Below, in pieces: positions 12,125 through 31,033 of a DNA stretch of 64,000 bases. A program made the translations under genes and the position numbers. Source of the DNA: Picochlorum sp. 'celeri' (Eukaryota; Chlorophyta; Trebouxiophyceae); assembly GCA_010909725.1 (NCBI GenBank), contig JAACMV010000022.1:1178001-1242000 (forward strand). The letters are read 5' to 3'. The notes below the pieces were generated by a model, which was not told where the DNA came from, made no database searches, and worked only from the letters and a program-made list of their open reading frames with translations. The stretch's first letter is position 1, and each line of letters opens with the position of its first letter.

Positions 12125-12187
12125 ACACCATGGTGTAAATGGTCTGGAAGCTTGGATGTATGCATACATCCCATATGGGAGGCCTCC
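12125..12187. repeat. Chain of overlapping perfect palindromes
   Basis: Within 63 bp downstream of bL33 are ACACCATGGTGT (12125-12136), GGATGTATGCATACATCC (12154-12171), TCCCATATGGGA (12169-12180) and GGAGGCCTCC (12178-12187). The last three share bases end to end. The function is unknown; the region is the bL33 3' flank and the bS16 promoter flank. Confidence 0.7.
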
Positions 12188-12333
12188 TGGCGAATGGAGA
12201 ATACGTGAAGCATCCCACCATGTTTTTCTGATCAGACCCATTATTTAATATTTAATATGAATGTCATGAATATTCTGGCATAGTATAGTACAGAGGAACA
12301 AGGGAGGACTGATTTCCAGTGCCAAAGAGACTC

Positions 12334-12772
12334 ATGGTCGTGAGGCTTCGTTTAGCTCGTTTCGGGCGTAAGGTGGGTGGTTTGATGTCATTTAATGGTC
12401 CCCATACATGTCTCATGATAGCTTTTACTGCAGAAAATGCCGATGTATAAGATATTCGCCGCGGACGCTAGAAGCCCAAGGGATGGTCGGCATCTCGAGG
12501 TGCTGGGGTATTATGATCCGATTCCTGAGAAGGATGGGCATAAGCATGTGGGTTTAAATATAGAGAGGATCAAATATTGGCTGTCAGTCGGGGCGCAGCC
12601 TTCAACGACTGTGGGGAGGTTGCTAAGTCAGGCAGGGGTGATTCCAAGGTCACCGATGGGTCTCGCATGCCGGGCTGTGAAGAATCCGGATAAGAGAAAT
12701 AAGACCAGGCCAGATCCTGAACAAGATGAAGAGAGTGATGAAGTGAGGGATGCCTCATCTTCTTCTGCATAG
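12334..12772 (+). CDS. Organellar ribosomal protein bS16
   Basis: Two exons, 12334-12372 and 12434-12772, give 125 residues. The 61-nt intron (GTGGGT...CTGCAG) is removed in frame and gives MVVRLRLARFGRKKMPMYKI, the usual S16 beginning. Conserved parts include FAADARSPRDGRHLEVLGYY, LNIERIKYWLSVGAQPSTTV and GRLLSQAGV. The C-terminal ~35 residues are an acidic, Ser-rich extension (PEQDEESDEVRDASSSSA) not found in bacteria. S16 sits in the small subunit body; targeting to mitochondrion, plastid or both cannot be decided from sequence, since plant nuclear S16 can go to either. Confidence 0.92.
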
Positions 12773-12809
12773 CTAGAACTATATTTAAACATTTAATAAT
12801 AATGTCCTG

Positions 12810-14564
12810 TCATTCCTCGTCTGGAGAGAGGGCCAAAATTGTCTCGAGAGATCTTTTGGCGTCTTCAATTGTCTCTTCATCCACGCTGTCTGAAATATCC
12901 GAGACAGTGCGAGGCATTGGCGGAATGATCTCGGTTGGTTGAGGGCCACCAAGAGAGTTAAGCATCCTCTTGTACTGTTCTACTTGGTTCCGCAACAAGA
13001 GTGTGGTGATGACACCCGCATTTGATGATCCTATGCGACCCATTCTGCCAGTCATGTGGAGGTATTCGCTTTCATCTTTCGGTAAAAATGTGCTGTACAC
13101 ATGTGTCACAGCTGGCAGATCCAGCCCTCGTGAGGAATACGAACTGGCAATCAGCAGGCTTGTCTTGTTGTCTCGAAAAGCGTGGAGAGCCTGAATTGGC
13201 TCTGAGCCGTCTGGAAGCAACACTGAAATTGCATGCTTTCCCCACAGGATATTTCGTAAAGGTTCCGCAAGCGCACGAGCATTCTCAGGCTCTTTCACAT
13301 ATACGATCCCTCGGTTGGGCTGAGAATCTATATTTTGAAGCTTTTGATCTGCCAGAACACACCGACACAAGACTCCGAGTTTATCCACTTCATGGTCCAC
13401 AACAACATATGTGTGCTTCACTGTGCTGCTGAGCATACTCCTCTCACCAACGACAATGTCGATTGGATCGTCAAGCCATTTCTGTTCCCGTGCATGGGAC
13501 AACAGAGAATCTGATATTGTTGCTCCACTCAGTACGACTGTTGGTCGCGCCGCCCCGCTCTGTTTATGTCTTTCTTCTTTTAAATTCGATGTAGTTTCCC
13601 GAGTTGTACATGTATGGATGATGTAATCCATATCCTCAGGGAACAGAGTATAGCATGCATCTGCCTCATCAACACATAGACTGACGCAATGTTGGACAAC
13701 CTCAACGCCACGGCCCAGAGCAGCAGCAATAAGTTTCGGTGTTCCTACCACAACGTGTGCCCCATCTAAATATCTATTGGTGACAGCCTCTTCGACCTCG
13801 TGATCCAACACCAACCCTTTCACCTTGAGGCCCCTAGGCCCTTTAAACTGGAACATATTTCCAGGAGCTCCAGGAATCCCAGCGTTTGTCGATCCACCAA
13901 ATAGAGAGTACACTTGCATTGCAATTTGTACTCCCAAATCCCTTGTTGGAGCGATGATCACAAGCTGAGGGCCCTTCAAATCATCAGGATACACATCCGG
14001 AGGATACCCCAGAAGTGATAGCAGAGGCAACAGAAATGCTAAAGTCTTGCCTGATCCGGTGGGAGCCTGAATGATGCAATCCGATCTACTCCCAATGGCA
14101 GCACAAGACCTGGATTGGATGGGTGTTGGGATCCCATACCCAAGATGCTGCACTCTGTCGACCAGCCAGTCCAGAATGCCTAGTTGAGACCAATCACCGG
14201 GCCCATCAGAACTCGCTCCAGGTAATTTGCTCAAGACGCTCTGAATAGCATCCCGAAGAGATGCTGCAGCTGTGTAATCCTCTGCATCCACAGCTTTCTT
14301 CAGTGCTGTGTGCAACTGATTCAAATCGTCTGGATAATCGCCGTCGCTTGAGACAGCCTGGCATCGCATTGATATAACACCCTCTACATTCCGCCGTGCT
14401 CCATTCAAAGCGCCACGCAGACGTGGTCTGCAAACTATGGGGTGACTCCAGGCAACTATGGGTCGACCAACCTTCATCGTCCATAGGATGGAGCACGCAA
14501 CCACCGTGTATTTACTTCTGAATGGTGTGTTACTTGTAGCCCATGACGAGCACCAATGCGCCAT
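12810..14564 (-). CDS. DEAD-box RNA helicase with N-terminal UVR-like motif, plastid-targeted
   Basis: A single exon of 584 residues, ATG start at 14564. An Arg-rich leader of ~70 residues suggests plastid import. A UVR-like helical motif (LHTALKKAVDAEDYTAAASL) precedes the helicase core. Core motifs are Q (PTPIQ), I (APTGSGKT), Ia (PTRDL), Ib (TPKL), II (VDEADACY), III (SGAT), V (RGLDLP) and VI (HMTGRMGRIG). Motif VI departs from the usual HRIGRxGR by having Met-Thr after His. DEAD-box proteins of this kind act in plastid rRNA maturation or ribosome assembly; which RNA is bound is unknown. An acidic tail follows. Confidence 0.85.
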   Translation of the reverse strand: MAHWCSSWATSNTPFRSKYTVVACSILWTMKVGRPIVAWSHPIVCRPRLRGALNGARRNVEGVISMRCQAVSSDGDYPDDLNQLHTALKKAVDAEDYTAAASLRDAIQSVLSKLPGASSDGPGDWSQLGILDWLVDRVQHLGYGIPTPIQSRSCAAIGSRSDCIIQAPTGSGKTLAFLLPLLSLLGYPPDVYPDDLKGPQLVIIAPTRDLGVQIAMQVYSLFGGSTNAGIPGAPGNMFQFKGPRGLKVKGLVLDHEVEEAVTNRYLDGAHVVVGTPKLIAAALGRGVEVVQHCVSLCVDEADACYTLFPEDMDYIIHTCTTRETTSNLKEERHKQSGAARPTVVLSGATISDSLLSHAREQKWLDDPIDIVVGERSMLSSTVKHTYVVVDHEVDKLGVLCRCVLADQKLQNIDSQPNRGIVYVKEPENARALAEPLRNILWGKHAISVLLPDGSEPIQALHAFRDNKTSLLIASSYSSRGLDLPAVTHVYSTFLPKDESEYLHMTGRMGRIGSSNAGVITTLLLRNQVEQYKRMLNSLGGPQPTEIIPPMPRTVSDISDSVDEETIEDAKRSLETILALSPDEE

Positions 14565-14857
14565 TGCATACCTGCCAAGACAAAGCTTTTTAAAATTGTT
14601 TATTTAAGGTATCGCTGGCGTGTATCGTCTTCATTATCGGCCCATCTATGGTGCTGACAAGTGTTTTTTTCTTTATAATAGCACTTGATTCTCTGAGATA
14701 AACATCAGAATACCCCACGGACCTCTGGATATCTACGAGAGAGAGAGATGACGGAGCAAATTCAAACGGAGATGGCGTGATATTCAATCTGTACGCAGAG
14801 AGTGACGTCTGATATGCAATTCTATACTTTTGAATTATTCAGTTGTTGGAGGATGAA

Positions 14858-17338
14858 ATGATGGAGAGAACTGTGACTTTTGGAAAGGGTTTTCAGGCAG
14901 GCAACGACGAGCCTGCTTTGCAATACTCGACAGTGTTCAACATCGAGGGCCCGTCTACGTCCGGACAGGATTCTTCGGGTGATATCACGTGTTTTGTAGC
15001 TTCAGAGAAGCTGTTGGCGATAGGGAGGCTTGATGGACGCGTGGATCTCATCGATTGTGAGGGGGACACTATCAAGACGTTCAGGGAACATCATGCACCT
15101 GTCCGAGGGTTGAGCTTCGATGCAAAGTCGGAATATTTGGCAAGCTGCTGCTCCAGTGGAAAGGTTTTCATATTCTCATTGTATAGTGAGCAGGATAGTT
15201 ATGTTGAAACCTACTCGGTGGGGAAAGAGTTGACCTCTATTGCCATTGATCCCAGGTATGCAAATAGGAAGACAAAGGAAGTCATCGTCGGGGACAAAAG
15301 TGGAAACGTATACTTTCTCAGTAAAGGATGGCTGGGAACATTAGAAAAGGTGTTATTCCGGGGCAAACACCCGATCAGACGCATTGCATGGTCAGGCACC
15401 ATGGTGGCTTGGTCCAGTTCAACTGGTGTGAGGGTGTATAACACGGGATCTCATCTTCCCGTGGGGACAGTTCCTCTGTCAGAATACAATGACGTATCTT
15501 TGTTGTGGGTTGCCTCGGGAAAGCTTTTCATAGGGCAAGGAAAGCAGGTATGGAGTGTAGCAAGTACTTGCATGAATGGGAGTCTGGCAACGACAGACTC
15601 TTCTGGAGATGGAGAGCGCACATGCTTCTCAACAGATCTCGTGTTTGAATCAGATCACGGCACCGTTGAGTCGTTGGGTCAAGGAATAGAATCAATTTTT
15701 GTCCTCACCAGAGGAAGTGATTCATACACAATTCTGAAACTATGTGATGAGGCACCAGCAGAGTTCTTGCATGGAGGGGAGTTGCCATTTCCTGAAGATG
15801 TTGCCGTACATCTTTCGGGCTCAGTTGCTTCGGCGTTGAACACGTCATGTGACACCGGAGAGCCAATGTTTTTCATCCACATGCCGCAGGGGATAGTTGC
15901 TGCCAAACCCTTGGATGCAGTATCCAGACTAGAATGGTTATGTGAGAACCATAGATTCCAAGAAGCTCTTGCTCTTACGAATTCGACGTACAGCCTTAGA
16001 ATGAGGAAAAGAGATGTTGGTGAAAAATATATGTCACACTTGATAGGTAAAGGTGAGTATAAAGTTGCCGGAGTGCAAGCACCACAATTGCTGTTTGACA
16101 GCACGGATGCATGGGAGAGATGGGCAACAAAGTTTGGGCAATCAAAAAAATTACACCTGCTTGCGCCTAATCTTCCATATAAAGACGTACAATTATCCGT
16201 AGGGATCTATGAACTCGCTATAAAGTCTTGCTTTCAACAGAAAGAATATGAAATAGCTGCCCAGATCTTGGATACATGGCCGGTTGAGCTGTATGACGAG
16301 AACGCAGTGTATGCGATGGCAAAGGAGAGATTGACTAGAGATCCCGATAGCACAGGCCTTCTGCAGATATCCCGAATCCTGTGCACCAAGATGGGAATGC
16401 ACCAGAAGGCAATGGAGATCATGATGAGACTCTCTGATGTCAGCGTATTTGATTACATTCGTGATCATAAACTGTTTTGGGCTGCATCTGTAGATGCAGC
16501 AACACTCATGGAAATAGACGAAGTACGCGCAACCAAGATGTTGGTTGAGTATCATGATGAGGCTCCTCCCCTCGAAGTGATTCAATCAATGTGCAGATTC
16601 CAAGAAGGGGTCGCAAAGGCTGACACATCGGAAGAAAATTTTGGCGCATCGCTGTCAGGGAGGGTAAAAGGACTATCAGACATCTGGTCAAAACGGCTGT
16701 ACAAATACTTGGAATGGCTCCGTCGAAGGGACTCTTCTATTACAGATTTTGACACGATTTTAGTGGAGATGTGCGCCTTGTACGAACCAGAAAATATGAT
16801 GACCCTCCTGCAAAGTTCAAATTCTTATTCTCTCGACCAAGCCTTGGATGCATGCGTCAAACATGGCTTAGTGGCAGAGCAAGTATTTGTTCTCGGACGC
16901 ATGGGATCAAACATTGATGCCCTGCATTTGATCGTTGAGAAGATGCAGGATGTGTCTGCTGCTGTGAGATTTGCAAATGAATGCATGGATGTCACTATTT
17001 GGGAAGAGCTGATGCATATCGCAAGCAAGAATGGGAGCTGGGCATCAGAGCTTTTGGAATTTGCTGGAGATGGAATTAACCCTGGACATTTATTGCAATC
17101 CATCTCAGAGGATATGTGTATTCCTGACCTGAAAGATAAGATCCACCTCGCTGCCCAAAGGGTACGTGAGGAGCTCTCAATGCAACAACTTTGCCAGATC
17201 AACTTGGAAGATGATTGCTCAAGGCTTCTCTTCCAATTGTATCAAAAGCTTTGCAGGTCGATTGAGATTCTTGAGTGGGCAAACGGCTCAGATACAGAGG
17301 ATGAGATTCCTGTGATTTCAATGTGGAGCAGTCATTAA
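14858..17338 (+). CDS. VPS41: Vacuolar sorting protein VPS41 (HOPS complex)
   Basis: A single exon. The first in-frame ATG is 14858 (826 residues); the frame is open to a TTG at 14843. Residues ~40-330 form a WD-type beta-propeller, including the diagnostic VPS41 block GWLGTLEKVLFRGKHPIRRI followed by AWSGTMVAWSSSTGVRVYNT. The rest is an alpha-solenoid with clathrin-heavy-chain-like repeats (FDTILVEMCALYEPENMMTL; LDACVKHGLVAEQVFVLGRM). No C-terminal RING finger is visible; animal VPS41 is ~850 residues with one. VPS41 tethers late endosomes to the vacuole. A minimal upstream ORF, ATG AAA TGA, begins at 14853 and overlaps the start region. Confidence 0.9.
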   Translation: MMERTVTFGKGFQAGNDEPALQYSTVFNIEGPSTSGQDSSGDITCFVASEKLLAIGRLDGRVDLIDCEGDTIKTFREHHAPVRGLSFDAKSEYLASCCSSGKVFIFSLYSEQDSYVETYSVGKELTSIAIDPRYANRKTKEVIVGDKSGNVYFLSKGWLGTLEKVLFRGKHPIRRIAWSGTMVAWSSSTGVRVYNTGSHLPVGTVPLSEYNDVSLLWVASGKLFIGQGKQVWSVASTCMNGSLATTDSSGDGERTCFSTDLVFESDHGTVESLGQGIESIFVLTRGSDSYTILKLCDEAPAEFLHGGELPFPEDVAVHLSGSVASALNTSCDTGEPMFFIHMPQGIVAAKPLDAVSRLEWLCENHRFQEALALTNSTYSLRMRKRDVGEKYMSHLIGKGEYKVAGVQAPQLLFDSTDAWERWATKFGQSKKLHLLAPNLPYKDVQLSVGIYELAIKSCFQQKEYEIAAQILDTWPVELYDENAVYAMAKERLTRDPDSTGLLQISRILCTKMGMHQKAMEIMMRLSDVSVFDYIRDHKLFWAASVDAATLMEIDEVRATKMLVEYHDEAPPLEVIQSMCRFQEGVAKADTSEENFGASLSGRVKGLSDIWSKRLYKYLEWLRRRDSSITDFDTILVEMCALYEPENMMTLLQSSNSYSLDQALDACVKHGLVAEQVFVLGRMGSNIDALHLIVEKMQDVSAAVRFANECMDVTIWEELMHIASKNGSWASELLEFAGDGINPGHLLQSISEDMCIPDLKDKIHLAAQRVREELSMQQLCQINLEDDCSRLLFQLYQKLCRSIEILEWANGSDTEDEIPVISMWSSH

Positions 17339-17353
17339 TGTGGTTACAGTTTT

Positions 17354-19516
17354 TTATTTATTGAATACTTTCCCAAGTGCATCACCAATTTCTTTCAACA
17401 AGAAAGCTTTCGATCCTGACATGAAGGACATCCGTTCCAACAATTGATCTTGCAGTACCTGGCATTGTCCGATTGCATCTCTCGCTGTTCCCCATGCAAG
17501 AGGTACATATTCCAAGTCAAAAGAAGGCCCGCTTTCTTCATCATCATCCTCATCTTCCGCTGGACAAATTTTGAACATAAATCCAGTCGTGGGATGGTTG
17601 TAGATGATGCCATTTCCAGATACCTCGGCCTCCAAACCAATATGATCTAACAGCTCCCTTTCCTCTGCAGTTATCCTCGCAAAATCATCCCCGCCTTCCT
17701 GAACAGGCGGCAATTTTGCTCCTTGAATGCTACTGCGGCTGCCCGAATAAAACTCAATTTGCTTCGGTTGACCATCTGGACCCAACAAGGATCCAGGTTG
17801 CACAGACACCCTGCGATGAACCTGCGCTCTAGATTCTTTTGTACCAGGGATATCCCCTTTGCCTTGATGGCCCGAAACTGTACCATGCGTGCTGGAGGGA
17901 TATCTCCCCGAAGGCCCAGCATGAGGTATTGTGGCTTGTGGCTGCATTTCATATGACCACTCACGCTGTCCTCTGTGGAGACCCCACGTGGGCCCAGCTG
18001 CATCTACCTGACCATACGTGTACAAGGAATTGGATGGGACACCCTCGGGCACCAAAGATCGGGCCTGCATCTTGGCAACGCCGTGAGGTGCTTGGATACC
18101 AACATCCATTCCTTGCATGGAGTCTGTTCCGACACACTTGTCAGCAGTAGTGTATATCCGTGCATATTTCTCTAAAAATGCATTCCGTTTTTGCAGCTCC
18201 GTAATACGGCTCTCTTTCTCGAGATTAGAAACACTGAGGTCGTTTACTTCGAGCTCAAGCTCACTTATGCGAGACTGTAACTCCCTTACTTTTTGATTCA
18301 ACTCTGCAACCTTGTCAGTGTCCACAAGATCTGCGAGCCTCTCAGCTTCGGATTTCCAGTGCTCTGCGACCTCCGCGGCAGCTTTACCATGTTCTCTCAC
18401 CTTATCATTCTGTATTTCGATGACTTGCTCGATGTCTTCCCTGATCTTCAAATCCTTCAGGGCTGCATTTTCCTCCTCCAACTTTTTGCATAGATCCACA
18501 AGGGATGCCATGCTATCCCTCATTTCCTGAACATGCTTGCCACTAATCTCCGGTAACTGAATCTTGTATACATCGGGTGACGTCGAGAAATCGTTGAGAT
18601 ACCTTTTGGTATCCAACAGGCTTGGCGATGAGCTGCCCCCATGCAGACCTTCTATTGATTTCATCAGACCAGCAATATCGAACTGATTACCGGCCTCTTT
18701 TACCTTTTTCGAGGAAGAAATATGACCGATTTTGGCTGCGATACCACCGAGCTGATCTGCACCAGCGATTGGCGACCCTTTCCTTTTGACATTCAACTTG
18801 CTTGGCTCTGGGGAGGGTGTATGCTCACTCACAGTCTCTTCATCCAACAAATCCACTTCATCTACCGTGCTCCTCTGATGTGCCCACGGTAATCCAGGTA
18901 CTTCTCGCTTCGCCTCGGCTTTCGTCGAACCCTTTTTACTCCTTCCGCTCTTCTTCTTGGCTGGAGCAGCAGCACCTGAAATTTCTCTGGACGAGGACGG
19001 CAGATCAACTGCAGTACAATGAAAGCATAATTATTCATTTATAGGGGACACAAAATGCCGGGTTGCCAAATCAGGACATGTAGCGCAAGCGTGAGACATG
19101 CGACGAACTCCACTCGAAAGTCAACAACGGGACGTACCGATTGGAACAACAGTCAGGCCGGCATTCCTTCCGCGAGCTGGAATTCGCTTTGTATCTTTTC
19201 CTGACGTGTCATTTTTTTTCTTATTTGTTTGCTTCCCATTGCCGGAGCCCGAACTCTTCTTCGAACCTCCCGAAGTCTTGGCGGTTGGTCTTTTGCCAAC
19301 CACTGGGCTTTCTTTACCGCTATCGGACGCATTCTCCTTATTTGGACTCCCAGCGTCCTTTTTCTTTTTCGATTGAGCTGCTTTTTTCTTTTTCTTTGGC
19401 TCTGCTGGAGGATCGTTGACGTTTGGCTGAATAGTTTTCAGCCAAGCAGGAACCATTCCCGAGCCTTTGTCACTATAGCTCACGGGAGCACGCGCTCGCA
19501 TGCCCCGACCAGCCAT
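17354..19516 (-). CDS. Coiled-coil nuclear protein, Csm1/TITAN9-like
   Basis: Two exons, 19138-19516 and 17354-19008, give 677 residues. The 129-nt intron has a GTACGT donor and a CTGCAG acceptor; phase 1 is preserved (TVVPI then VDLPSSSREIS). The N-terminus is very basic (KKKKKAAQSKKKKD and similar), implying nuclear location. Residues ~290-430 predict a long coiled coil (ELNQKVRELQSRISELELEV). The last ~100 residues (TAEERELLDHIGLEAEVSGN then IIYNHPTTGFMFKI) resemble the globular C-terminal domain of Csm1/monopolin-type proteins such as plant TITAN9, linked to kinetochores or chromatin. That assignment is by pattern only; another coiled-coil RWD-like protein is possible. TGTAA lies 6 nt past the stop. 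Confidence 0.6.
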
Positions 19517-19619
19517 TATTTACAATAAATACAGTTTCAGAAGTTTAATGAATATTTGGAACAAAAATCGTTGGCATGACGAGAAACTCATGTACATTTT
19601 TTTGAAATGGAAAGCGCGC

Positions 19620-20873
19620 CTATTTTTTGATTGGCAAGGAGAGAAATGAGACTGAACCTTCTTCAGAATTTTCCCCTTGGCCTGATTTCCATGCTCCGAT
19701 AGCGATGGCATCCCCTCGGTCAGATGCCGAAATGGAGAGACCAAATTCGTCATTGGTGGTGAACCGGTCTTCGTCAGTAATCGTTGCCAGGTGGATCCAC
19801 TCCCCCTCGACATCTTGGAAGAGGAGGACGCTACCAACATGAGATTTTTCGCCTTCTTTTGAGAGAAATGAGTGTCCCGGAGCCGAAACAAAGAGCAATT
19901 CGCCATTGGTACTGCATGACAGGCTGACACCAAAGAGCCGACCCTCCGTCCTCTGGCCATCGGGCATCTCTATTGTGTCAATAAACTCAAAGGATCCACG
20001 CTCCCCTTTTCTCTCCAATACATACACGCACCCCTTCTTTTCATCATGCCCTGGCGAGGATATAAACATTCTGTTCCCAGACATGGCGATAGAAGTACCG
20101 AAATATTCTCGTTTTCCTAGGGGCACACCAGGCGGAGTAAGTTTCTCGCCCAATTCCCACGAGCCATTCGTGTTGTCCAATAGGTACACAATCCCTCTTC
20201 CTCCTCCACATGTAGGCGCGGCGATTGCACAATATCTTGCACGCTGCTCCATGGCAACGAATTCCCCAAACTCTCCCAATTCATTCTCCCTTCTATCGCA
20301 TTCCTCCAACTCTACTCTTGCTCTCTGCATCCACACTCGTGCAGATGAATCTTTTTCAAAAATATACGCGGCACCGCATTGTTTCCCGTATTGCGGTGCC
20401 CCCACTAGCACCCAAGTAGCTGTCTCATCCATGCAGACAGAGAGCCCAAAACAGTCTCCTGGTTCCAGCCCTGTCTTGGTCGGCCTGATCGCTTGTATTT
20501 CTGTGAACACCCCTCCTGCACTTTTCTGGAACATATACACACACCCAGTGGCACCATCATATCCATAGCTGCCTACAGCAATTGTCGAGCCATCTGGCAC
20601 CACGGCAACTGTCCCAAAGCTGTGGTTATCATTCTGATCAGATGCTGCAAGAACCTGTGAGAGCACTGGCTTTCCAGAGCCCTCAAAGTGGTACACATAA
20701 GCTCTCCCATTGTTGACGAATCCATCACCGCTCGCGTGCCACGCGCCGACGACGAGCAATCCGCATGTGCTCTCCATCTGAACTCTCACTCCAAACCAGG
20801 AACCAGAGCCGTGGTTTAGGCCGGGTGGCCTCAAAACAACATCAGGTTTCAATGTACCATCTCTTCGTAGCAT
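19620..20873 (-). CDS. FG-GAP/integrin-alpha-like beta-propeller protein
   Basis: A single exon of 417 residues, ATG start at 20873. It has seven or so repeats with the FG-GAP spacing: FGVRVQ, FGTVAVVPDGSTIAVGSYG, FGLSVCMDETATWVLVGAPQ, FGEFVAMEQRARYCAIAAP, FGTSIAMSGNRMFISSPGH, FGVSLSCSTNGELLFVSAPG, FGLSISASDRGDAIAIGAW. These fold as a single beta-propeller like integrin alpha subunits and many bacterial surface proteins. No signal peptide, membrane segment or calcium-loop DxDxDG series is clear, so location and partner are unknown. Confidence 0.8.
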   Translation of the reverse strand: MLRRDGTLKPDVVLRPPGLNHGSGSWFGVRVQMESTCGLLVVGAWHASGDGFVNNGRAYVYHFEGSGKPVLSQVLAASDQNDNHSFGTVAVVPDGSTIAVGSYGYDGATGCVYMFQKSAGGVFTEIQAIRPTKTGLEPGDCFGLSVCMDETATWVLVGAPQYGKQCGAAYIFEKDSSARVWMQRARVELEECDRRENELGEFGEFVAMEQRARYCAIAAPTCGGGRGIVYLLDNTNGSWELGEKLTPPGVPLGKREYFGTSIAMSGNRMFISSPGHDEKKGCVYVLERKGERGSFEFIDTIEMPDGQRTEGRLFGVSLSCSTNGELLFVSAPGHSFLSKEGEKSHVGSVLLFQDVEGEWIHLATITDEDRFTTNDEFGLSISASDRGDAIAIGAWKSGQGENSEEGSVSFLSLPIKK

Positions 20874-20986
20874 ATTTATGCCTTTATTTTACATTCAAAA
20901 TTATTCCGGTCTATAGATGACTGATTCGTTTGTTTGTTAGGGTGATCACGTCGCTGACGTGGCCGGATCTGTACACATGTGTGTGT

Positions 20987-22693
20987 TCAAATCAAAGGAT
21001 CAAGGCTGGGAACTCGAGGTGTGTTCCTCCGTTCCTCCAGTTCCTCCTGCGAGAGACGTGGTAAGCTTGAAAGCAGTTCAAAGGATGCAACTTGGTTGAA
21101 ACCTCCTTCCCATTGGATTTGGACAGCATAATTGCCAACACTTCTAATATCCATTGGCTCGATATCATCCGGAATATCACCATCCGAAAGCATTTTCTCC
21201 CCTGTCCATTCGTTGATACTAGCAGCGGATGTGTCATTCCTTCTTACAGTTGCAGGATCCAAGTAGTACGCGGCAGCCTCGCCCTCGCCTGTATGGGCAG
21301 AAGGAGGTTTGACCACAAATGCAGCCACCTCTGAATCATACCGGCATGCATTCTTCGGTACGAGAGCCAACTTTGCAGCTTCTCTCACGACGCATGCACC
21401 TAGTTCTTGGAACACTTGAGAAGTCGCACCGATCGGATCTTCGACGACAAGAGGCTTGCCACCATCCCCAGCAGCAGACAGCCGCGAGTCAATGGGAAAT
21501 TTCACCAGGTGTGGGATACCGAAATCCGTTTGGACCCGCTCGCCAGACCCTTCACCGAATGGTTGATATCGTTTCCCATCATCTCCATCAAAATAGCTCA
21601 TATTCTCTGCAACAGCAACACATGGCACCTCCATTCGCGCAAACATTCTAATACCTTTGGCCACGTCAACAAATGCCAAGTTCTGTGGTGTGGTCACAAC
21701 AACGGCGGCCGTAAAAGCGACTGTCTGGCACAGAGTAAGCTGAATATCACCAGTACCGGGTGGAAAATCGACCACCAGATAATCCAGCTCACCCCATTCT
21801 GATGTCAGGAGAAGCTGTTCAATCAACCCAGACACCATGGGACCCCTCATGATGGCACTGCCTTGTCCAGCAAACCCAAACGATACTCCTTTAACGCCTT
21901 CATACTCAACAGGAGTGATGGCCTGCATTGCGTATACTCATGTCATTGTGTGACGAGGTGACTGACTATCAGAAATATGTCCACATACCTTTGTCTCAGG
22001 GTCCATCTGAAGCACTCGAATCTCCGGGCGTATCATCGTAGGAAGACTGGGCCCATACACATCAGCATCGAAAATTCCCACTTTTGCTCCCATCTGGGCA
22101 AGAGTGTACGCAAGGTTCACGGCCGTGGTAGATTTGCCCACCCCACCCTTGCATGATGACACGGCAATAATATGCTTCACCTGTCGCAGCCCATTAGGCC
22201 TATTCTCTTCCGGCCCAAGGGGAGACACTGGCTGAGCATCCATCTTCACGTCCACGCTCGTCACCCAGTCGATCCCAGACACCACGGCGTTCGCACTCTT
22301 TTCAAACTCCTCCTTTATTGGACAAGCTGGTGTCGTTAATTCCAACCTGAAAGACACCCTCCCTGATCCAGAATCTATCTCTAAATCTTTCACAAATCCG
22401 CAATCCACAATGTTCATTCCAAAATCTGGATCCATGATGGTAGATAAAGCACCTAGGACGTCTCCCTCCAACGTTCGAACCCCACCTTCTCCATGGGCTC
22501 TGCATCGTAATCTAGAGATACGACCACGTCCATCATTCTTAACCACCACATTGTTACTGAGTCCACGGCAATGCCCAATGGAAGTCCTGGCTGGCCTTGC
22601 TACTGGAGACATGTGCGTCCCACATGTGGGCGATACGCGAGCCAAAAACTGAGTGCTCATCGGCCCCCAACCATGAGTTTGCATCAACTTCAT
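20987..22693 (-). CDS. HCF101: HCF101, plastid Mrp-type Fe-S carrier P-loop protein
   Basis: Two exons, 21989-22693 and 20987-21922, give 546 residues. The 66-nt intron (GTATGT...ATGCAG) is phase 0. The first in-frame ATG is 22693; the frame is open to a TTG further up. The layout is a transit peptide (~65 residues), a DUF59/MIP18 domain with Cys in [11 protein letters not shown], a P-loop ATPase with [17 protein letters not shown] and [13 protein letters not shown], and a C-terminal DUF971-type domain ([20 protein letters not shown]). That domain set is specific to HCF101, which transfers 4Fe-4S clusters to photosystem I. The Mrp-family CxxC scaffold motif is not evident, in agreement with HCF101. 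Confidence 0.93.
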
Positions 22694-22868
22694 TCTGAAA
22701 CTATACAAAATCTACAATGCACGGGATCGGGACTGGCAACGGTATTGTTGCCCTCTGGATCACAGCATGCATCCAGCTGGATGAAAGATCCAGAGATGAT
22801 GATGAAAGATGTTGACCATAACAACCTCATCATACGAGCCCAGTCTCCAGATTCAAAACACATTCATC

Positions 22869-24018
22869 ATGTCTGGAGTACACGACTGTGACGAGTATGC
22901 CTTGGAACCAACCTTGGAGAACATCCTAGAGCAGACCTCTCTGAAATGGATTTTTGTGGGAGGCAAAGGAGGCGTAGGGAAGACGACGACGTCGTGTAGT
23001 TTGGCCATTCAGCTTGCGAGAGTCAGATCAAGTGTTTTAATTATATCCACGGATCCTGCTCATAACCTGAGCGATGCTTTTAGACAGAAGTTTACAAAGA
23101 CACCGACACTCGTGAATGGATTCGACAACCTCCACGCCATGGTACGATTCGATTGCTCTTTCAAGTTGGAAAATATGCTTGTTTTCTTATCTTCTTCTCA
23201 TGTAGGAAGTTGACCCGAATCCGGATGTGCCAGAGCTGGAGACTATGGAAGGGCTTGAGGAAGGAGGCTTTCTGGCCGAGATTTCCTCCTCTATCCCAGG
23301 TATCGATGAAGCCATGAGCTTTGCAGAAGTTATGAAGAGGGTCCAATCCATGGATTATTCTTGCATCGTCTTCGACACTGCCCCGACGGGGCACACGCTG
23401 CGTCTGCTGCAGTTCCCAACCACCCTGGAGAAGGGGCTGGGCAAACTCATGAGCCTCAAAGACTCGTTCGGAGGAATCCTGTCGACTGCTTCCTCCTTGC
23501 TCTCTGGCCCTGGAAGCGAGGACATGCTGACCGGTATCATGGAGAAGCTCGAAAAGCTGAAGGAGATTGTGGAAGAGGTGAATGCCCAGTTCAAGAGTGC
23601 CGACCTCACAACTTTTGTCTGTGTGTGCATTCCAGAGTTCTTGTCGCTCTATGAAACCGAGAGACTGGTTCAAGAACTGGCCAAGTTTGAGATCGACTGC
23701 AGGAACATTGTGATCAACCAAGTCATCTTCCCAGAGGAGGTTGGTTCGTCCCGACTCCTCCAAGCCCGAGTCAGGATGCAGCAAAAGTATTTGGAACAGT
23801 TCTACGACCTGTACGAAGATTTCCACATTGTCAAAATGCCTCTGTTGGAGGAAGAAGTGCGAGGAAATGACTCGTTACGTTCATTCTCAGACAACCTCAT
23901 CACCCCGTACAGCCAATCGTCGTTGGAGGACCTCGACAAGCAAGTCCTCATGAACGAGGCGGAGCACCTGAGATCTAAATTGGAACAGGTGGAACAGAAA
24001 TTGGCACAAATGAATTGA
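22869..24018 (+). CDS. GET3: GET3/ArsA-type tail-anchored protein targeting ATPase
   Basis: Two exons, 22869-23141 and 23206-24018, give 363 residues; the 64-nt intron (GTACGA...TGTAG) is phase 0. The P-loop [16 protein letters not shown] begins near residue 31, switch I is [12 protein letters not shown] and switch [20 protein letters not shown]3 binds tail-anchored membrane proteins in the cytosol and hands them to the ER receptor. The Met-rich helical substrate region ([20 protein letters not shown]) is present. The dimer-bridging zinc CxxC expected before QARxxMQxKYL is missing: the sequence there is [17 protein letters not shown]. The C-terminus has an extra ~35-residue coiled coil ([15 protein letters not shown]). 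TGTAA lies 15 nt after the stop. Confidence 0.92.
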
Positions 24019-24537: not shown

Positions 24538-24990
24538 ATGATGATGACGAGTGCGAGGGTAGTGACACAAGCAAAACTGGGTGCACTCCCAGTAACTTTG
24601 CCAACACGGACACGTGACCGGTGCCGTCGACTGTGTGTCCGGGCGTCGGACGATGAGGACATGGTGCCAATTTTTTCTGGAAGAAGGAAGAAGGGTTTCA
24701 GCGCAAAGGAGTATGAGCAGCTGAGGAACCCACAACTTTTGGGTGGTAAGACCATTGGGGAGGAGTTGGAGCTTTTGCGGAAGCAGTATGTCTCTGCAGA
24801 GGAGATGGCGTCTGATCAGGTTCAATCTGATTTGATATCGGACAATTGGCAAGGCGATGTATACGTCGGAAGTAGATGGAACACATTGTCGGTTTTATAT
24901 TTGATCATGTTGGCATCCATTGGAGGCATCGGGCTGTTTGCATGGATGTCTTATGGCACCATGTGGGGAGTCACTCCAGGACTATGGTGA
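24538..24990 (+). CDS. Plastid membrane protein, function unknown
   Basis: A single exon; three successive ATG codons start at 24538, giving 150 residues. The first ~35 residues (RTRDRCRRLCVRASDDEDMV) look like a chloroplast transit peptide ending at VRA/S. The mature protein has a charged helical part (IGEELELLRKQYVSAEEMAS) and then the segment NWQGDVYVGSRWNTLSVLYL running into a single or hairpin membrane helix (LIMLASIGGIGLFAWMSYG). I do not recognise the family with certainty; a small thylakoid or envelope membrane protein is likely. It is the last host gene before the Fanzor element. Confidence 0.65.
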   Translation: MMMTSARVVTQAKLGALPVTLPTRTRDRCRRLCVRASDDEDMVPIFSGRRKKGFSAKEYEQLRNPQLLGGKTIGEELELLRKQYVSAEEMASDQVQSDLISDNWQGDVYVGSRWNTLSVLYLIMLASIGGIGLFAWMSYGTMWGVTPGLW

Positions 24991-25085: not shown

Positions 25086-25108
25086 AGTGAGAAGATCCAC
25101 TGGAAATA

Positions 25109-25146
25109 CCGTAAAAATTTTAAATTTCGTTTAATTAAGGAATGTA
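25109..25146 (+). repeat. Left terminal inverted repeat of the Fanzor element
   Basis: The outer 24 bp (25109-25132) match the inverted right end at 21 positions, and GGAATGT at 25139-25145 is shared too. The outer neighbour is TA. By analogy with TnpB and Fanzor, the sequence directly outside this end (GGAAATA) would hold the target-adjacent motif. Confidence 0.7.
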
Positions 25147-25201
25147 ACATCTAGTCCATTTGACTCTGGTCAATCCGAATCTTCTAGAACCTTGGATTGG
25201 T

Positions 25202-27553
25202 ATGAAGTCGAGCCGCCATCGCCAACCGTGTCATTTCAAAATGAAAAAAAAGAGAAAGGTGTCCGCCACACCATCGAAAAAGGTGAAGAAAAAGAAGTTT
25301 ACTCGATTGGATGTGGCTATAAAGAAGGATAAAGACCGTTTTTTCAATAAGACAGTCGTCAAGTGCACTTTGCAGCCTTTTTGTAAGTTCAAAGTGGTTC
25401 AACGCGAAATTGAAGAATGTGTATTCTATCTGAGTAGACTACAGATTCATGTGCATCATGTCATGCATCTATTGTTATTGAGGAACGGTGGGGCATTTAG
25501 AGACCACAAAGATGAAACTCTCTACGAACTCTACAACAAAATCTACAGACACCTTGCTAATCATTTGCAACAAAAGAAGGAGAGAAAGGATGTTGATACC
25601 AACTTGCGCGACTTGTGCAAGGAATATTGTGAGGAGACTGGGTTAAGAACAGATTGGCCACAGGGTTGTCTCTCTTCTTGGAGAGGCAAAACAATGGAGC
25701 AGATGGCCCAGCAGTCGTCTGTTATGCATACCACGCATTTGGAAACCAATCTTAATGTATATGCATTACGGTATCTGAGATATTTGCTATTTCGAGACGA
25801 CACGGACTTTGACCAAATCAAAAATTTGTCAAAGAAGAAGTTTGGACAAGTATTTTCTGCAATCACACAGGCATTCTGGGAGAGGACGAAAGTCAGTGAT
25901 ATTGTTGAACGTAGACCATCATTGACAGAATTTGCGTCTGATGTGTCAGTATGGGATGAAGCACAGAGAGCCTTGGATATCATTTGCTCGTTGGTGCCAA
26001 AGACGACAACTCTTTCTGAGAAATCCAGAATTTGCTTCTTCATTTTGGGTCACTTGGAGCCATTCGTGGAATCACTGCAACAGAGGTTCAGAAACGGAGA
26101 GTTTGAAGGGAAGAAGAGTATACTTGGAAGACAGAAATGGACATTTTGTCTGTGTCCACAGATGGCCTGGAAACCAAAGCATATCCATATCTCCAGCACA
26201 GCAGTGAAGACTATGGTTGAGCAACTCGCAAAGAAATATCCATATATCAGAAAGATAGTAGATGACTGTCCAGCACTGGATGACTATACAAATAAGTATT
26301 ATTATTGGAAATCGATATTCAACATGAAGCGAGTATTGAAAAAAAAGCACATGAAGGACCAAACGAAACTCAGATTCGGATGCTCTATATGTACTGATGG
26401 CGTCTCTGTTTCTGCTGTTATAGACACTGTGAAGTCGGATCTGGAATGCAAGATAATCCATCTGCAGGATGATATGAATTACGTCAAAGCAAAGTTGTGG
26501 GCCACCTATTGTGGGATGTTTGCAACCAACATTATTGCAAAAAAGATCAGATATGACCCTTTGCGTATTCTCCTTGGTGACATTTCCACCATACATTATG
26601 TTCTACTGAAGCCATTGTTGCATACATTAAAGTCACAAAAGGACGTTCTACAGAAACGAAAGGCTAAAAACAAAGACAAGACAGTCATCACAGAAAGGAT
26701 CAAAAGGTTGGCTGGCATACGCAAAGATGACCATAGTATATATCACACAGATTGTATCATTGTCGGTTTGGACCCAGGTAAAAAGTCAGCGGCCACGTGG
26801 GTTTTTCATGATTCGGAAAAGCAAAAGATCCATGCAAAGTGGAATGCAGAAAATGGTCGTCATACAGAGGTGGAAGACAAATATAAAAGTGATTCTCTGG
26901 GGTCAGGAGAATGGATCTTCTTATCTAGTCAGAAACAGTATACAGCCAAAATGAAGAAAAGGATGTCTGAATACTGTCCTGCATGGATGTCTGTGCCAAC
27001 ATACAAGACAGTAGATCTTGAGAAAATTTTTGAGAGTTACAGATTCCAAGTTTCTATGTGGCCCCAACTGCAACAAGCCTTCTTCGATGACAAAAAATGG
27101 TATCAGAAACAGAAGATGAGGAAATTTTGCAAGGAAAAGTCGGCCATGGAGGATGTGGTTGCTCGAATCTGTGGAACAAGAAACAAAGAGGCACAGAAGA
27201 GAGTCATCGTGGCGTATGGTGATGGTGATAATAACGGCACAATGAGGGGCACTGCTCCTATCATGAGCACAAAACTGTTCAACAAGGTATCGGAATGTGC
27301 CACAGTTGTGTTGGTTAATGAATTCAATACGTCCAAACTCTGTTCTTGCTGTCATGAGGCAATGGAACAGTACAACAAACAATTCAGGATGAAACGTTGT
27401 CACAACAATGAATGCATTCGAAATGTTTGGGACCGTGATGTCAATGCCAGTATCAATATCAAAGACTTGTTTTTGGAAAAGTGTCACAATGGAGCTCGAA
27501 TCAAGGCTTTCAAGAGGACGAGGAAAAGGCAAAGGACATCAACACGGCAATGA
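25202..27553 (+). CDS. Fanzor, eukaryotic TnpB-like RNA-guided endonuclease
   Basis: An intact single-exon ORF; the first ATG is 25202 (783 residues), with a second in-frame ATG at 25244. The N-terminus is highly basic (KMKKKRKVSATPSKKVKKKK), containing KKKRKV like the SV40 nuclear signal. A long helical region follows, then the RuvC-like nuclease: motif I IIVGLDPGKKSAATWV (Asp524), a VIVAYGDG strand lacking the canonical glutamate, and VVLVNEFNTSKLC with Glu707, the alternative position reported for Fanzor. A zinc finger has C714/C717 and C733/C738, and motif III is VWDRDVNASINI (Asp744/Asp746). All catalytic positions are kept, so activity is plausible. Fanzor proteins use a guide RNA made from the element's own 3' end to cut DNA. 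It is the only protein in the element. Confidence 0.93.
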   Translation: MKSSRHRQPCHFKMKKKRKVSATPSKKVKKKKFTRLDVAIKKDKDRFFNKTVVKCTLQPFCKFKVVQREIEECVFYLSRLQIHVHHVMHLLLLRNGGAFRDHKDETLYELYNKIYRHLANHLQQKKERKDVDTNLRDLCKEYCEETGLRTDWPQGCLSSWRGKTMEQMAQQSSVMHTTHLETNLNVYALRYLRYLLFRDDTDFDQIKNLSKKKFGQVFSAITQAFWERTKVSDIVERRPSLTEFASDVSVWDEAQRALDIICSLVPKTTTLSEKSRICFFILGHLEPFVESLQQRFRNGEFEGKKSILGRQKWTFCLCPQMAWKPKHIHISSTAVKTMVEQLAKKYPYIRKIVDDCPALDDYTNKYYYWKSIFNMKRVLKKKHMKDQTKLRFGCSICTDGVSVSAVIDTVKSDLECKIIHLQDDMNYVKAKLWATYCGMFATNIIAKKIRYDPLRILLGDISTIHYVLLKPLLHTLKSQKDVLQKRKAKNKDKTVITERIKRLAGIRKDDHSIYHTDCIIVGLDPGKKSAATWVFHDSEKQKIHAKWNAENGRHTEVEDKYKSDSLGSGEWIFLSSQKQYTAKMKKRMSEYCPAWMSVPTYKTVDLEKIFESYRFQVSMWPQLQQAFFDDKKWYQKQKMRKFCKEKSAMEDVVARICGTRNKEAQKRVIVAYGDGDNNGTMRGTAPIMSTKLFNKVSECATVVLVNEFNTSKLCSCCHEAMEQYNKQFRMKRCHNNECIRNVWDRDVNASINIKDLFLEKCHNGARIKAFKRTRKRQRTSTRQ

Positions 27554-27674
27554 ATTCGGCATGTAAGTCGGCTGCTTTTTGCAGACGCTATGCTTCAAGA
27601 TACAGCAGAGAGAACGATGGAACTTCCAAGTTTGGAACATTCCGTCCGACAAACGAAATTAAAAAATTTTACTG
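27554..27674 (+). ncRNA. Candidate Fanzor guide-RNA scaffold (fRNA/omega-RNA)
   Basis: In known Fanzor and TnpB elements the guide RNA covers the end of the ORF, the 3' noncoding part and the right end, with the guide coming from the flank. This 121-bp segment contains a strong stem-loop at 27616-27646: GATGGAA pairs with TTCCGTC (one G-T) and, across a small internal loop, TTCCA pairs with TGGAA around an AGTT loop. A smaller stem CTGC-TTTTT-GCAG lies at 27572-27584. The right inverted repeat follows. The predicted guide would begin at 27675 (TAATTTACGCGAGCGAGCGA). Boundaries are inferred; no transcript evidence exists here. Confidence 0.5.
27636..27674 (-). repeat. Right terminal inverted repeat of the Fanzor element
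   Basis: The inverted copy of the left end, 27651-27674 for the well-matched 24 bp, with the shared GGAATGT (minus strand) further in. The repeat's outer edge plus the flanking TA reads ACTG-TA-A and so creates a TGTAA motif at 27673-27677, the polyadenylation-type motif used by neighbouring genes. Confidence 0.7.
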
Positions 27675-27676
27675 TA

Positions 27677-28027
27677 ATTTACGCGAGCGAGCGATAGATG
27701 TTGATTCTTTTTTCAAGATAATTTTGAGTATTTTTATAGTATGTGTAATCATGTATCATGAATTTGCGTGATTCTGCTGCTACCTTGTAGGCGACAAGGT
27801 GACATCGAGAAACGCCTTGAAGTTTGAAGGTTCTCGTACCTGAACCACTATAATATGATATTCATCCATCCTTTTTCCGTTCAATAATTTGGATAGTTTG
27901 GATAATCATATCTGATTCGGGGTTGAGTATCAGCAACAAATACAGTACAGTCCGGTGACATAGCGAGCGAGATAGGATTGAATAGATGCTGGTGCTGTAA
28001 CCCACACGAATTAATTAGATTGATAAA
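27677..28027. other. 351-bp region between the Fanzor element and DAG lipase
   Basis: No gene is visible. It begins with ATTTACGCGAGCGAGCGATA, which would be the resident guide sequence if the fRNA model is right. It also probably contains the promoter and short 5' leader of the lipase gene, with an AT-rich patch near 28010-28027. Confidence 0.45.
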
Positions 28028-31000
28028 ATGCCTCAGTTGCGGATGCTTGGACGCCGTTGGCGGCTTGCGAGCGATATGCTGCCACTCATGGCGATTGTTT
28101 TTGTCATCATTCACGTTGCCATCCTGGTTCCAGTGTTCACCATGTATGCGGTTGGAAGGGGTGGTTATTCGTGTCCACAGGAGAGTCTCGTGGAAGGTTC
28201 TATTTTGGCAACACTTCTATGTCACCTGATCGCATTGGTTCATGACGCCGTGATGGTGGTTGTTGGCTTGAGAGGAGGGCCTTTTGAGGAGAAGAAGAGG
28301 AGGTCCATGTCGACCATGATGGTGTCGCGAATCTTTTTGTACCTGCTGACTTTGGCAGCCGTGATTTTGTCGACTGTTGTGGTATATAGTCCCAGTGTGC
28401 AGGACAATTGCTTTGCAGGAGATCCATGCAAAGCAGTTGCTGGTGTGTGTGAGAATGGAAGGCTCATAGAGGCGTGCAGAATTGCATATGAGTTGTCTCC
28501 GAGGGAGCTTCAAGTGTGTCGAACCGAGTGGTTCAATTTAGCGGCAACGTATGCTGTGGTAAATTATAATGCCTCGTACCTGCCACATTACCCAGATGGA
28601 GGCATCACCTATGACGGCATATGCAATGTATCCATGACGGCAGTGTCTGAAGCATTCAAGAAATGGCAAGAGGAGACTGGGCAATATTTCCCGACATACA
28701 GAGAATCAATTCTTCCAGGGCAGCCAGGAGACGATGCAGTATACGTAGGTACCATTTGGGCAGATGATATGGGCATGGTGGCAGAGAATGCCACATGGAA
28801 TGGGTGCCTTGGCGATGGCTGCCAGGGTATAGCAGCTGCTCCGAGCGAATGCCCGGGATACAATGCACTGATTGCTTTTGGAGAAGATAGTCCGCTGTAT
28901 AAGGATGCGCAAGGCGTTGTTTGGGGTTCTTGGGCAATATTGATCCTGGTGCTTGCCATTTTCATCTTCTCATTCAATGCATTCCCAGATTATTCCAAAC
29001 AAGAGAGTTGGACAGGCTCGGTGCGAAGTTTGTCCAGAATGCTTTGTTTCTCTTCCCTGCTTGACTCGATCAAAACAGAGGACGGTAGTACTGCGGCTGA
29101 AGGTCTGGGCGAATTGCTGTTTAAATTCTTTGGAAGCATTGACTTGGATGTGACGGATCAAATTTTAGGATTATATCTTGTGTCAGAGAGACAACAATGG
29201 AGGAGATTTACGGTGGCAACAAATGTGCTCAGCTCGTATGGGTACGAGTACACACGCAAACGCAGAGGTTTGAGCTGCTGTCGTGGGTCCTTGTTGAAGA
29301 GGAAGAAGGCCCTCAAGTCTCGACTGCAGTCATCCTTGGACGGGGAATCTCTTGGTGTGGAAGTTAGAAAACTGGTTCCCTGCCCAGAATCTTTCTCAGC
29401 GTCGTATGAAATTTCTTTTTTATCGCCAAAAATGTACCATAGCTTTGCGAGGCTAGCGGGAGAAGATGTAGAGGTTATACAGTCAATGTGGTCAGCGCCA
29501 CAACAAGAGCACATTGAATCAGACAAGACTGTTGCTTCACAAGCAGCCATGAGAACACTCCAAACTATGACGCTTGAGTTTGATTCGACGACATTTTTGA
29601 CACCAGCCAAATTTTCTCATGGTGCTTTTGAACCACAAATATCTGCTCCTGCAGCAGCAGATGTATACCTTGGCAGTCCGACAAGCTATGTGCCGAAAGA
29701 AACTCTGGAGGACTGCCTAAAACTCTCATGGTTTGCGAAGGCGTCGTATGGCCTTCAGACGGTGAAATGGAAGGATGCCAAAACAGGGAACTGGTGCTTG
29801 GACACACTTGACATGTGCCTTGATTGCCTCAAGTCTATTGGCGCAAAGGTTGTGGTGAAGAATCATTTTAGGAAGAGGAATCTTAACGCAATCATCAATT
29901 ACACAGGAATTGATCCAGCAGATATCCTTCATGTGTCGTACACAAATACTGCAATGGGAATTTTGCCCTACATGGTTGTCGTTGACAGATCATCACAGAA
30001 CATCATCATCTCTGTCAGGGGAACGGTAAATACAGCGGACTTGATCACGGACCTCATGAGTCATCCAAAGGACTGTAGCTCAAGTTTGCCTGAATGGGTG
30101 TTAAGAGAAATCTATGGCAGTGAGCATGGAGGGGATCATCACGGAACCAAGATCTACTGTCATGGTGGCATCTTGTCATCAGCAAAGGCAATACTGGCAG
30201 ATCTGGATTCGAAGGATCTTTTGACTGCCATGGAGGGTGTCACACGCAGTTTCGATGACGAAAGTATTCTCGAAACGCTTGGCGGTGTGGATGGGAGAAT
30301 TCATAGGGAGGTGATTGATGATCTGGGCCAAGAAGATGACGTTTGTCTGCCTCTTGGAAGAGCTCAATCAGTCGTGCACGAAGCAGCAGAGAAAGGTTGG
30401 GGACTCGTCGTCACAGGCCACTCATTGGGTGCCGCCGTTGCAAGTATTGTTTCGTTTAGCCTGATTGAGAGGTTCAGTTTTGCCCGTTGCGTTGTCTTCA
30501 ATCCGCCTGGAGGAGTCATGGACCCAAGACTTGCGGAGCTATCTAACAAATTCTGTACATCAGTCGTAGTTGGATTCGATGGAATATCTAGATTGTCCAT
30601 TTCAAACGTCAGAATGGTGATTGATGACATGGTCCTTGCGCTGGGGCGATGCAAGAGGGCAAAACTGGCTGTCTTCTGTGATGCCATACTCGGGAGAAGA
30701 GAGGATCCGTCATCCGCCCCTCCGACCTTCTGTGATTTTCAAAGCATAGATGATGAGGCAAAATCAATTATATCTCTGTACCTCGAAACCTCGCGACTGC
30801 ATGCCACTGGCGAGACTGACATTCCTTTGCACCCTCCTGGCAAAATTGTCTTCTTGAGGCCGCATTACGATATGGGTTCTTCAAAGCCGCCAAGCACGTG
30901 GGACGCGCTGTATGTCAGGAGAGAAGACCTAATGGATGAAGGAATACTCATATTGAAAGAGATGCTAGTGCATCATCACATTTATGCTTTGCAAGAAGCC

Positions 31001-31033
31001 CTGCAAGCAGCAATGAAGCATGGAGATCCTTAG
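28028..31033 (+). CDS. sn-1-specific diacylglycerol lipase (DAGL-like), multi-pass
   Basis: A single exon of 1001 residues with an ATG start. Four predicted membrane helices lie near residues 20-45, 60-80, 100-125 and 295-320, with a Cys-rich lumenal loop between the third and fourth (CFAGDPCKAVAGVCENG). The class 3 lipase domain starts at LHVSYTNTAMGILPYMVVVD. The nucleophile Ser799 is in VVTGHSLGAAVASIVSF, with SVRGTVNTADLITDLMSHP ahead of it. Human DAGL-alpha has the same order: four membrane helices, then lipase. It would release monoacylglycerol and a fatty acid from diacylglycerol at a cell membrane. An insertion (residues ~710-780) separates the lipase segments, as in animal DAGL. Confidence 0.85.
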   Translation: MPQLRMLGRRWRLASDMLPLMAIVFVIIHVAILVPVFTMYAVGRGGYSCPQESLVEGSILATLLCHLIALVHDAVMVVVGLRGGPFEEKKRRSMSTMMVSRIFLYLLTLAAVILSTVVVYSPSVQDNCFAGDPCKAVAGVCENGRLIEACRIAYELSPRELQVCRTEWFNLAATYAVVNYNASYLPHYPDGGITYDGICNVSMTAVSEAFKKWQEETGQYFPTYRESILPGQPGDDAVYVGTIWADDMGMVAENATWNGCLGDGCQGIAAAPSECPGYNALIAFGEDSPLYKDAQGVVWGSWAILILVLAIFIFSFNAFPDYSKQESWTGSVRSLSRMLCFSSLLDSIKTEDGSTAAEGLGELLFKFFGSIDLDVTDQILGLYLVSERQQWRRFTVATNVLSSYGYEYTRKRRGLSCCRGSLLKRKKALKSRLQSSLDGESLGVEVRKLVPCPESFSASYEISFLSPKMYHSFARLAGEDVEVIQSMWSAPQQEHIESDKTVASQAAMRTLQTMTLEFDSTTFLTPAKFSHGAFEPQISAPAAADVYLGSPTSYVPKETLEDCLKLSWFAKASYGLQTVKWKDAKTGNWCLDTLDMCLDCLKSIGAKVVVKNHFRKRNLNAIINYTGIDPADILHVSYTNTAMGILPYMVVVDRSSQNIIISVRGTVNTADLITDLMSHPKDCSSSLPEWVLREIYGSEHGGDHHGTKIYCHGGILSSAKAILADLDSKDLLTAMEGVTRSFDDESILETLGGVDGRIHREVIDDLGQEDDVCLPLGRAQSVVHEAAEKGWGLVVTGHSLGAAVASIVSFSLIERFSFARCVVFNPPGGVMDPRLAELSNKFCTSVVVGFDGISRLSISNVRMVIDDMVLALGRCKRAKLAVFCDAILGRREDPSSAPPTFCDFQSIDDEAKSIISLYLETSRLHATGETDIPLHPPGKIVFLRPHYDMGSSKPPSTWDALYVRREDLMDEGILILKEMLVHHHIYALQEALQAAMKHGDP

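Follow-up and report, generated by a model that had tools for sequence, protein, structure and literature searches.

The window analysed here is a 64,000-nucleotide stretch of the green alga Picochlorum sp. 'celeri' (assembly GCA_010909725.1, contig JAACMV010000022.1, positions 1,178,001 to 1,242,000), and it carries an open reading frame (ORF) for a Fanzor, a eukaryotic TnpB-like RNA-guided nuclease. The frame opens with an ATG at 25202 and runs for 783 codons to a stop codon at 27551-27553 with no internal stop or frameshift, so the intact 783-residue ORF of the preliminary description stands. The ORF fills a 2,566-bp transposon (25109-27674) bounded by TA dinucleotides. This boundary was set by aligning copies of the element together with their flanks, and the aligned copies have the pattern TA, CCGTAAAA...ACTG, TA in common (Table 1). 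The terminal inverted repeats (TIRs) are imperfect, with 21 of 26 bases matching in an ungapped comparison, and they occur with a TA target-site duplication (TSD), both being features of TA-inserting Tc1/mariner/pogo transposons. The GC content is 40.9% in the element and 48.0% in the rest of the window. The Fanzor frame is the sole sense ORF of at least 120 aa between 25109 and 27674, and no DDE transposase of the element's own was found there. The serine recombinase TnpA (IS607, the Fanzor2 carrier) was also looked for in this interval, which has no second sense ORF of at least 120 aa and three antisense ORFs without a Pfam match. A three-base duplication (TAN) was rejected; by eye it fits only four of nine sites, whereas TA fits all nine. 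At those four sites (L011/L012, L013/L014, L019 and L021/L022) the left and the right TA are followed by the same base, which may be chance.

Table 1. Features of the Fanzor element and flanking genes (window coordinates).
Feature	Position	Strand	Basis or remark
ArsA-type ATPase in two frames	22809-24018		flanking gene
150-aa frame without Pfam match	24538-24990		flanking gene
left TA TSD	25107..25108	.	preceded by A, giving ATA, candidate target-adjacent motif (TAM)
left TIR CCGTAAAAATTTTAAATTTCGTTT	25109..25132	+	matches right end
leader	25133..25240	+	aligns with 5' end of the C20 transposase-plus-Fanzor element; holds first in-frame ATG (25202)
Fanzor1 ORF	25202..27553	+	783 aa + stop; start possibly Met14 at 25241
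lysine-rich N-terminal stretch, residues 14-34	25241..25303	+	sequence; basic stretch also in homologues
TDG motif T398-D399-G400	26393..26401	+	33-sequence alignment
RuvC1 DPG motif D524-P525-G526	26771..26779	+	33-sequence alignment
alternative RuvC2 Glu E707, C4 zinc finger C714/C717/C733/C738, RuvC3 Asp D746	27320..27439	+	Pfam, alignment
predicted omega-RNA 3' scaffold	27599..27676	+	closing stem UACAG/CUGUA, AGUU-loop hairpin, TIR hairpin
right TIR, reverse complement CAGTAAAATTTTTTAATTTCGTTTGT	27649..27674	-	matches left end
right TA TSD	27675..27676	.	element boundary
flanking DNA, predicted guide ATTTACGCGAGCGAGCGATA	27677..27696	+	Fanzor right-end rule and element boundary
class-3 lipase	28028-31033		flanking gene

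Pfam identifies the Cas12f1-like TNB zinc-finger domain (PF07282) in the ORF with an expectation value (E) of 1.2e-8 and 35.5 bits against a cut-off of 26.3, so this profile search does not place the protein outside TnpB/Fanzor. In a 33-sequence alignment D524, P525 and G526 are each invariant (33/33), and E707, the four cysteines and D746 are each present in 32 of the 33 rows, the remaining row being a gap. This occupancy and the PF07282 match bear out the C714/C717-C733/C738 zinc finger first read from the sequence. Six residues separate E707 from C714, the first zinc-finger cysteine, which gives the E-x6-C signature, and the C4 finger is followed by RD, a feature of Fanzor and TnpB. The TDG motif is equally constant, with D399 and G400 in 33/33 rows and T398 in 32/33. 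Asp524, Glu707, Asp744 and Asp746 all lie where the preliminary description had put the RuvC positions, but its two candidates for the third catalytic residue are not equivalent. Position 744 is D in 27 rows, N in five and a gap in one, and because of the five asparagines the alignment makes D746, the Asp of RD, the likelier catalytic residue. DPG and E-x6-C are a Fanzor fingerprint, and TDG in the WED domain is that of Fanzor1 (Yoon et al., PMC10711439). Relatives as distant as 34-38% identity over residues 380-783 keep the signature residues. Translation may start at Met14 (25241), because most other rows of alignment A1 (10 of 13) begin at this residue and the DNA encoding residues 1-13 can be aligned to the leader of a relative on contig C20. 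Judged by composition, the lysine-rich residues 14-34 are likely a nuclear localisation signal.

An AlphaFold model of the 783-aa protein had a predicted local distance difference test (pLDDT) score of 82.6 and a predicted template modelling (pTM) score of 0.76. SpuFz1, PpFz1 and GtFz1 occupied the top seven rows when the model was compared with the PDB. SpuFz1 was the best structural match and aligned with the model across residues 47-773, with 12-16% identity in the structural alignments. A phmmer search of the PDB and an NCBIfam search returned no match to the protein, and a profile search gave GtFz1 as a weak match (E 0.0014). No relative was confirmed in one scan of viral contigs that used two peptide patterns. 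On its Pfam TNB domain, signature motifs and modelled fold the ORF is a Fanzor1, which upholds the Fanzor identity first assigned to it.

The genome holding the window comprises 27,412,692 bases in 30 contigs, paired as two haplotypes. This 27.41-Mb paired assembly fits the algal nuclear genome proposed at the outset, as does an annotated protein of Picochlorum sp. BPE23 that is 99% identical (716/726 residues) to the Fanzor on C20. There are 58 matches to the Fanzor protein in the genome, and 13 are full-length frames without a stop, with translations checked. The count of copies suggested in the preliminary description gave, at the DNA level, 20 near-identical copies (one seen in part), of which 13 are intact and 7 broken, distributed over nine or ten sites. 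The broken copies are on C2, C30, C1, C13, C29 and, twice, C21, with an additional fragment on C22; some of their frameshifts may be long-read errors. The copies differ from the window copy by less than 2% of their DNA. Their right end is identical in 19/19 fetched loci and the left end was located in 18, its first bases varying in L011/L012, L013/L014 and L021/L022. The gene had been described as lying between ordinary host genes, and its neighbours are indeed ordinary, but the description misleads in that the ORF is the cargo of a 20-copy transposon. An intact ORF among ordinary genes would suit a Fanzor gene that the host has domesticated here; the 20 near-identical copies, which share their ends but lie at unrelated sites, make that reading scarcely credible.

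On C15 and C27 a 5.3-kb version of the element lies inside a histone-deacetylase (HDAC) gene in both haplotypes (L021:953-6275 = C15:912451-917773, and L022). By eye, the HDAC frame is restored when the 5.3-kb version and one TA are removed, and two further HDAC genes in the genome have 55-57% identity. The suspicion that this copy is the autonomous element was dropped: the additional 2.75 kb is a repeat that recurs close to other copies, no frame in it exceeds 167 aa, and two frames of the copy lack a Pfam match. At another copy, L017 (C27:10559), the left flank is subtelomere-like and the right flank continues on C15 (L029) as uninterrupted EF-hand-like sequence by eye, which indicates that the flanks of this copy are rearranged.

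The relative on C20 holds, in one unit, a TIR, an ORF of 893 aa in which a DDE_1 domain is recognised (E 5.7e-13) and an 809-aa Fanzor that is 50% identical to the Fanzor of the window. We take the DDE_1 domain to denote a pogo-type transposase. Elements of the pogo type insert at TA. The C20 element was reached both by a DDE_1 search (PF03184, 8 matches in the genome) and by a looser inverted-repeat pattern, which gave 66 matches against 20 with a control pattern and from which the C20/C5 rows, with one mismatch, were used. The Tc1/mariner transposase families PF13358 and PF01359 have none in the genome, a weak negative as the control genomes were positive in 3/14 and 0/14 cases. Over its first ~140 bp the C20 element can be aligned to the window element as far as the Fanzor start, and past the first 30 bases the 5' alignment score is 76 against 55.5 for the best of 500 shuffles. 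On the homologue C5 the same transposase is found in three pieces. From these alignments the window element looks like a derivative of the transposase-bearing kind that has lost its transposase and is moved in trans, although the order of events may have been the opposite. A MITE-like (miniature inverted-repeat transposable element) sequence of 531 bp, found at L042 and L043 (C2:1322212-1322742, C22:1296350-1296880), has inverted repeats that resemble those of the Fanzor element.

The right end of the element is predicted to encode a guide RNA. The closing stem UACAG/CUGUA of the last 78 nt takes in the TA duplication, and two hairpins are predicted to fold inside it. The 3' end of the C20 element is predicted to follow the same fold plan with different helix sequences. 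Fold z-scores against 500 shuffles were -2.35 for the 78-nt window module and -3.71 for the C20 module, and an Rfam search of the scaffold gave no match. The guide is predicted to begin at 27677, because Fanzor1 scaffolds are described as including TIR and TSD (Yoon et al.) and, by the element boundary, the right TSD ends at 27676. ATA precedes the element at 10/10 distinct left flanks, compared with 36% A before TA across the window. This count was made without L018 (left end missing), L024/L027 (which share the flank of L023) and the alleles L012, L014, L016, L020, L022 and L026. The sequence context makes ATA a possible TAM, and published motifs are CATA for SpuFz1 (Saito et al., PMC10432273) and ATN for PpFz1 (PMC11423790). 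The new guide and target rules expected in the preliminary description thus take the form of predictions: a scaffold at 27599-27676, a guide from 27677 and ATA as the possible TAM.

Taken together, the element is probably a TA-inserting non-autonomous transposon with Fanzor1 as its sole gene, moved in trans by a C20-type transposase and maintained by RNA-guided cutting of empty sites and copy-back. The pogo-type DDE_1 transposase of the C20 relative would act in trans on the window element, recognising its similar inverted repeats and moving it by cut-and-paste. An omega-RNA made from the right end would have a scaffold closing on the TA duplication and a guide formed by flanking host DNA. Guided by this omega-RNA, Fanzor would cut a matching empty site, in which the guide sequence follows ATA, either on the homologue or, once the element has been excised, on the sister, and repair would copy the element back into the cut site.

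Several results weigh against this scheme. The terminal repeats of the C20 element are similar but not identical to those of the window element, and cross-mobilisation is a conjecture. The ends of the modules in the fold test were picked after the folds were viewed, and longer stretches were little or no better than shuffles (z = -1.28 for 129 nt and 0.29 for 196 nt). Pair probabilities of the closing stem are 0.45-0.59 in the window element compared with 0.77-1.0 in C20, and in the intact copy L014 this stem reads UAAAG instead of UACAG (GATAAAG for GATACAG). ATA may be a preference of the transposase rather than a TAM, because the Fanzor-less MITE also sits at ATA and the C20 Fanzor element sits at TTA. 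A first protein model, built from 12 sequences, was poor (pLDDT 54.9). For the youngest copies the ratio of nonsynonymous to synonymous substitution rates (dN/dS) ranges from 0.5 to 2.0, each value being based on 7-15 changes. This last range, with the sub-2% divergence of the copies and the existence of the MITE without a Fanzor, is what would be expected if the Fanzor gene were a passenger, inert or nearly so, and the pogo-type transposase alone spread an element whose frames are open because the copies are young. Conservation of the signature residues in the distant relatives, a dN/dS of 0.34 to a diverged copy and the similar 3' fold kept by the C20 relative despite its different helices speak against the passenger reading, which is unlikely.

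The haplotype pattern bears on the copy-back step of the transposon scheme. At six sites occupied in both haplotypes there are 2 single-nucleotide polymorphisms (SNPs) in 18,193 bp of element sequence, compared with 128 in 41,001 bp of flanking sequence. A circular-shift test with 20,000 shifts gave P = 5e-5 for this contrast, which takes no account of coding constraint on the element. In the pair L010/L026 the first 500 bp were unalignable and were removed from the comparison. Pairs that are truncated or in repeats were omitted: L019/L018 has 0 element SNPs with one copy truncated and grossly different flanks, and L023/L024 and L023/L027, whose surroundings are repeated and subtelomere-like, have 4 element SNPs each. 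No whole empty site for the nine joined flanks was found among the 40 of 114 candidates scored. One candidate, C5:732205, was rejected; the match passes the junction by 13 bases and then departs from the joined flank. Approximately 0.1 kb at window positions 47780-47882 corresponds to approximately 7.4 kb on the homologous contig C2 (C2:1244090-1251508). This longer stretch has a DDE_1 transposase frame but nothing that matches the window Fanzor, and is read as a heterozygous insertion.

The low SNP count in the element fits inter-homologue copying (homing) as a possibility, confounded by SNP-free tracts elsewhere and by the long-read-only assembly. In its strongest form, Fanzor itself would be the main force spreading the element between homologues, acting in the manner of a homing endonuclease: it would cut the empty allele, so that insertions become homozygous. 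The SNP contrast and the lack of whole empty sites among the scored candidates agree with this, as do two single cases: the DDE_1-bearing insertion without Fanzor is present on one homologue only, and a candidate target of the C27:10559 guide near C15:5047 (ATA plus guide) is uncut, although it mismatches the guide at position 9. Low-heterozygosity tracts arise anyway, however. Window positions 12147-21287, 9.1 kb without a Fanzor, have zero SNPs between haplotypes, reflecting either loss of heterozygosity or unphased assembly, and divergence is clearly higher from ~31 kb. The Fanzor-less MITE is identical between homologues over 931 bp including flanks, and the two L023 pairs outside the SNP test are not SNP-free. 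The published phased Picochlorum celeri assembly was polished with long reads only (PMC7225527), which can homogenise repeats, and the SNP contrast leaves coding constraint aside. Homing as the principal spreading force is quite improbable. A broader proposal, still doubtful, is that Fanzor1 is a natural homing drive in which the right-end RNA directs cutting of the empty allele and young insertions become homozygous with short identity tracts, even in HDAC. If true, the pattern would record Fanzor at work in vivo in a eukaryotic genome.

Elements that carry Fanzor1 alone between Mariner TIRs and TA duplications have been on record since 2013 (Bao and Jurka, PMC3627910), and the element kind is therefore already known. 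In that report PUl-4 is Fanzor1-only and PGv-1/PUl-1 has a Mariner-like transposase; the features in common with the window element are a lone Fanzor1 gene, TIRs that also occur in a transposase-bearing family, and TA duplications. The window family differs in its green-alga host, a DDE_1 (pogo-type) rather than Mariner-like partner, many young copies and a phased diploid genome. SpuFz1 (PMC10432273), the closest PDB fold with a TAM resembling ATA, has demonstrated activity, whereas the window Fanzor is known from sequence and a model. The insect-virus Fanzor1s of Yoon et al. (2023, PMC10711439) likewise have DPG, the alternative Glu and TDG, and their three-stem reRNAs include TIR and TSD in the scaffold; the RNA of the window element is a prediction. 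In another green alga, Auxenochlorella, the most abundant repeat encodes a Fanzor, called uncharacterised there (PMC12633428). The IS200/605 TnpB gene drive (PMC11870625) follows the proposed logic, with a right-end guide that marks the insertion site and empty copies that are cut, but is bacterial, plasmid-borne and experimentally demonstrated, whereas the window element offers an indirect haplotype pattern. Fanzor, gene drive and homing were found together in the open-licence literature for bacterial plasmids; no paper there was found to link Fanzor with pogo or to describe the window family, its DDE_1 partner or its haplotype pattern.

The 20 copies, transposase-bearing relative, short predicted guide RNA and two phased haplotypes make this family a natural test system for what Fanzor does for its transposon in eukaryotes, retention and homing included. 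The host alga is reportedly already edited with Cas9, and the window Fanzor with its predicted TAM is a candidate genome editor. The genome also holds other Fanzor lineages. One, at L031 and L030 (C20 and C5, about 47 kb), has 38% identity and DMG instead of DPG at RuvC1, and retains E-x6-C, the zinc finger, RD and a TDG. Further long lineages of 959-1026 aa with about 30% identity occur at L039, L040 and L041 (C10, C14 and C11).
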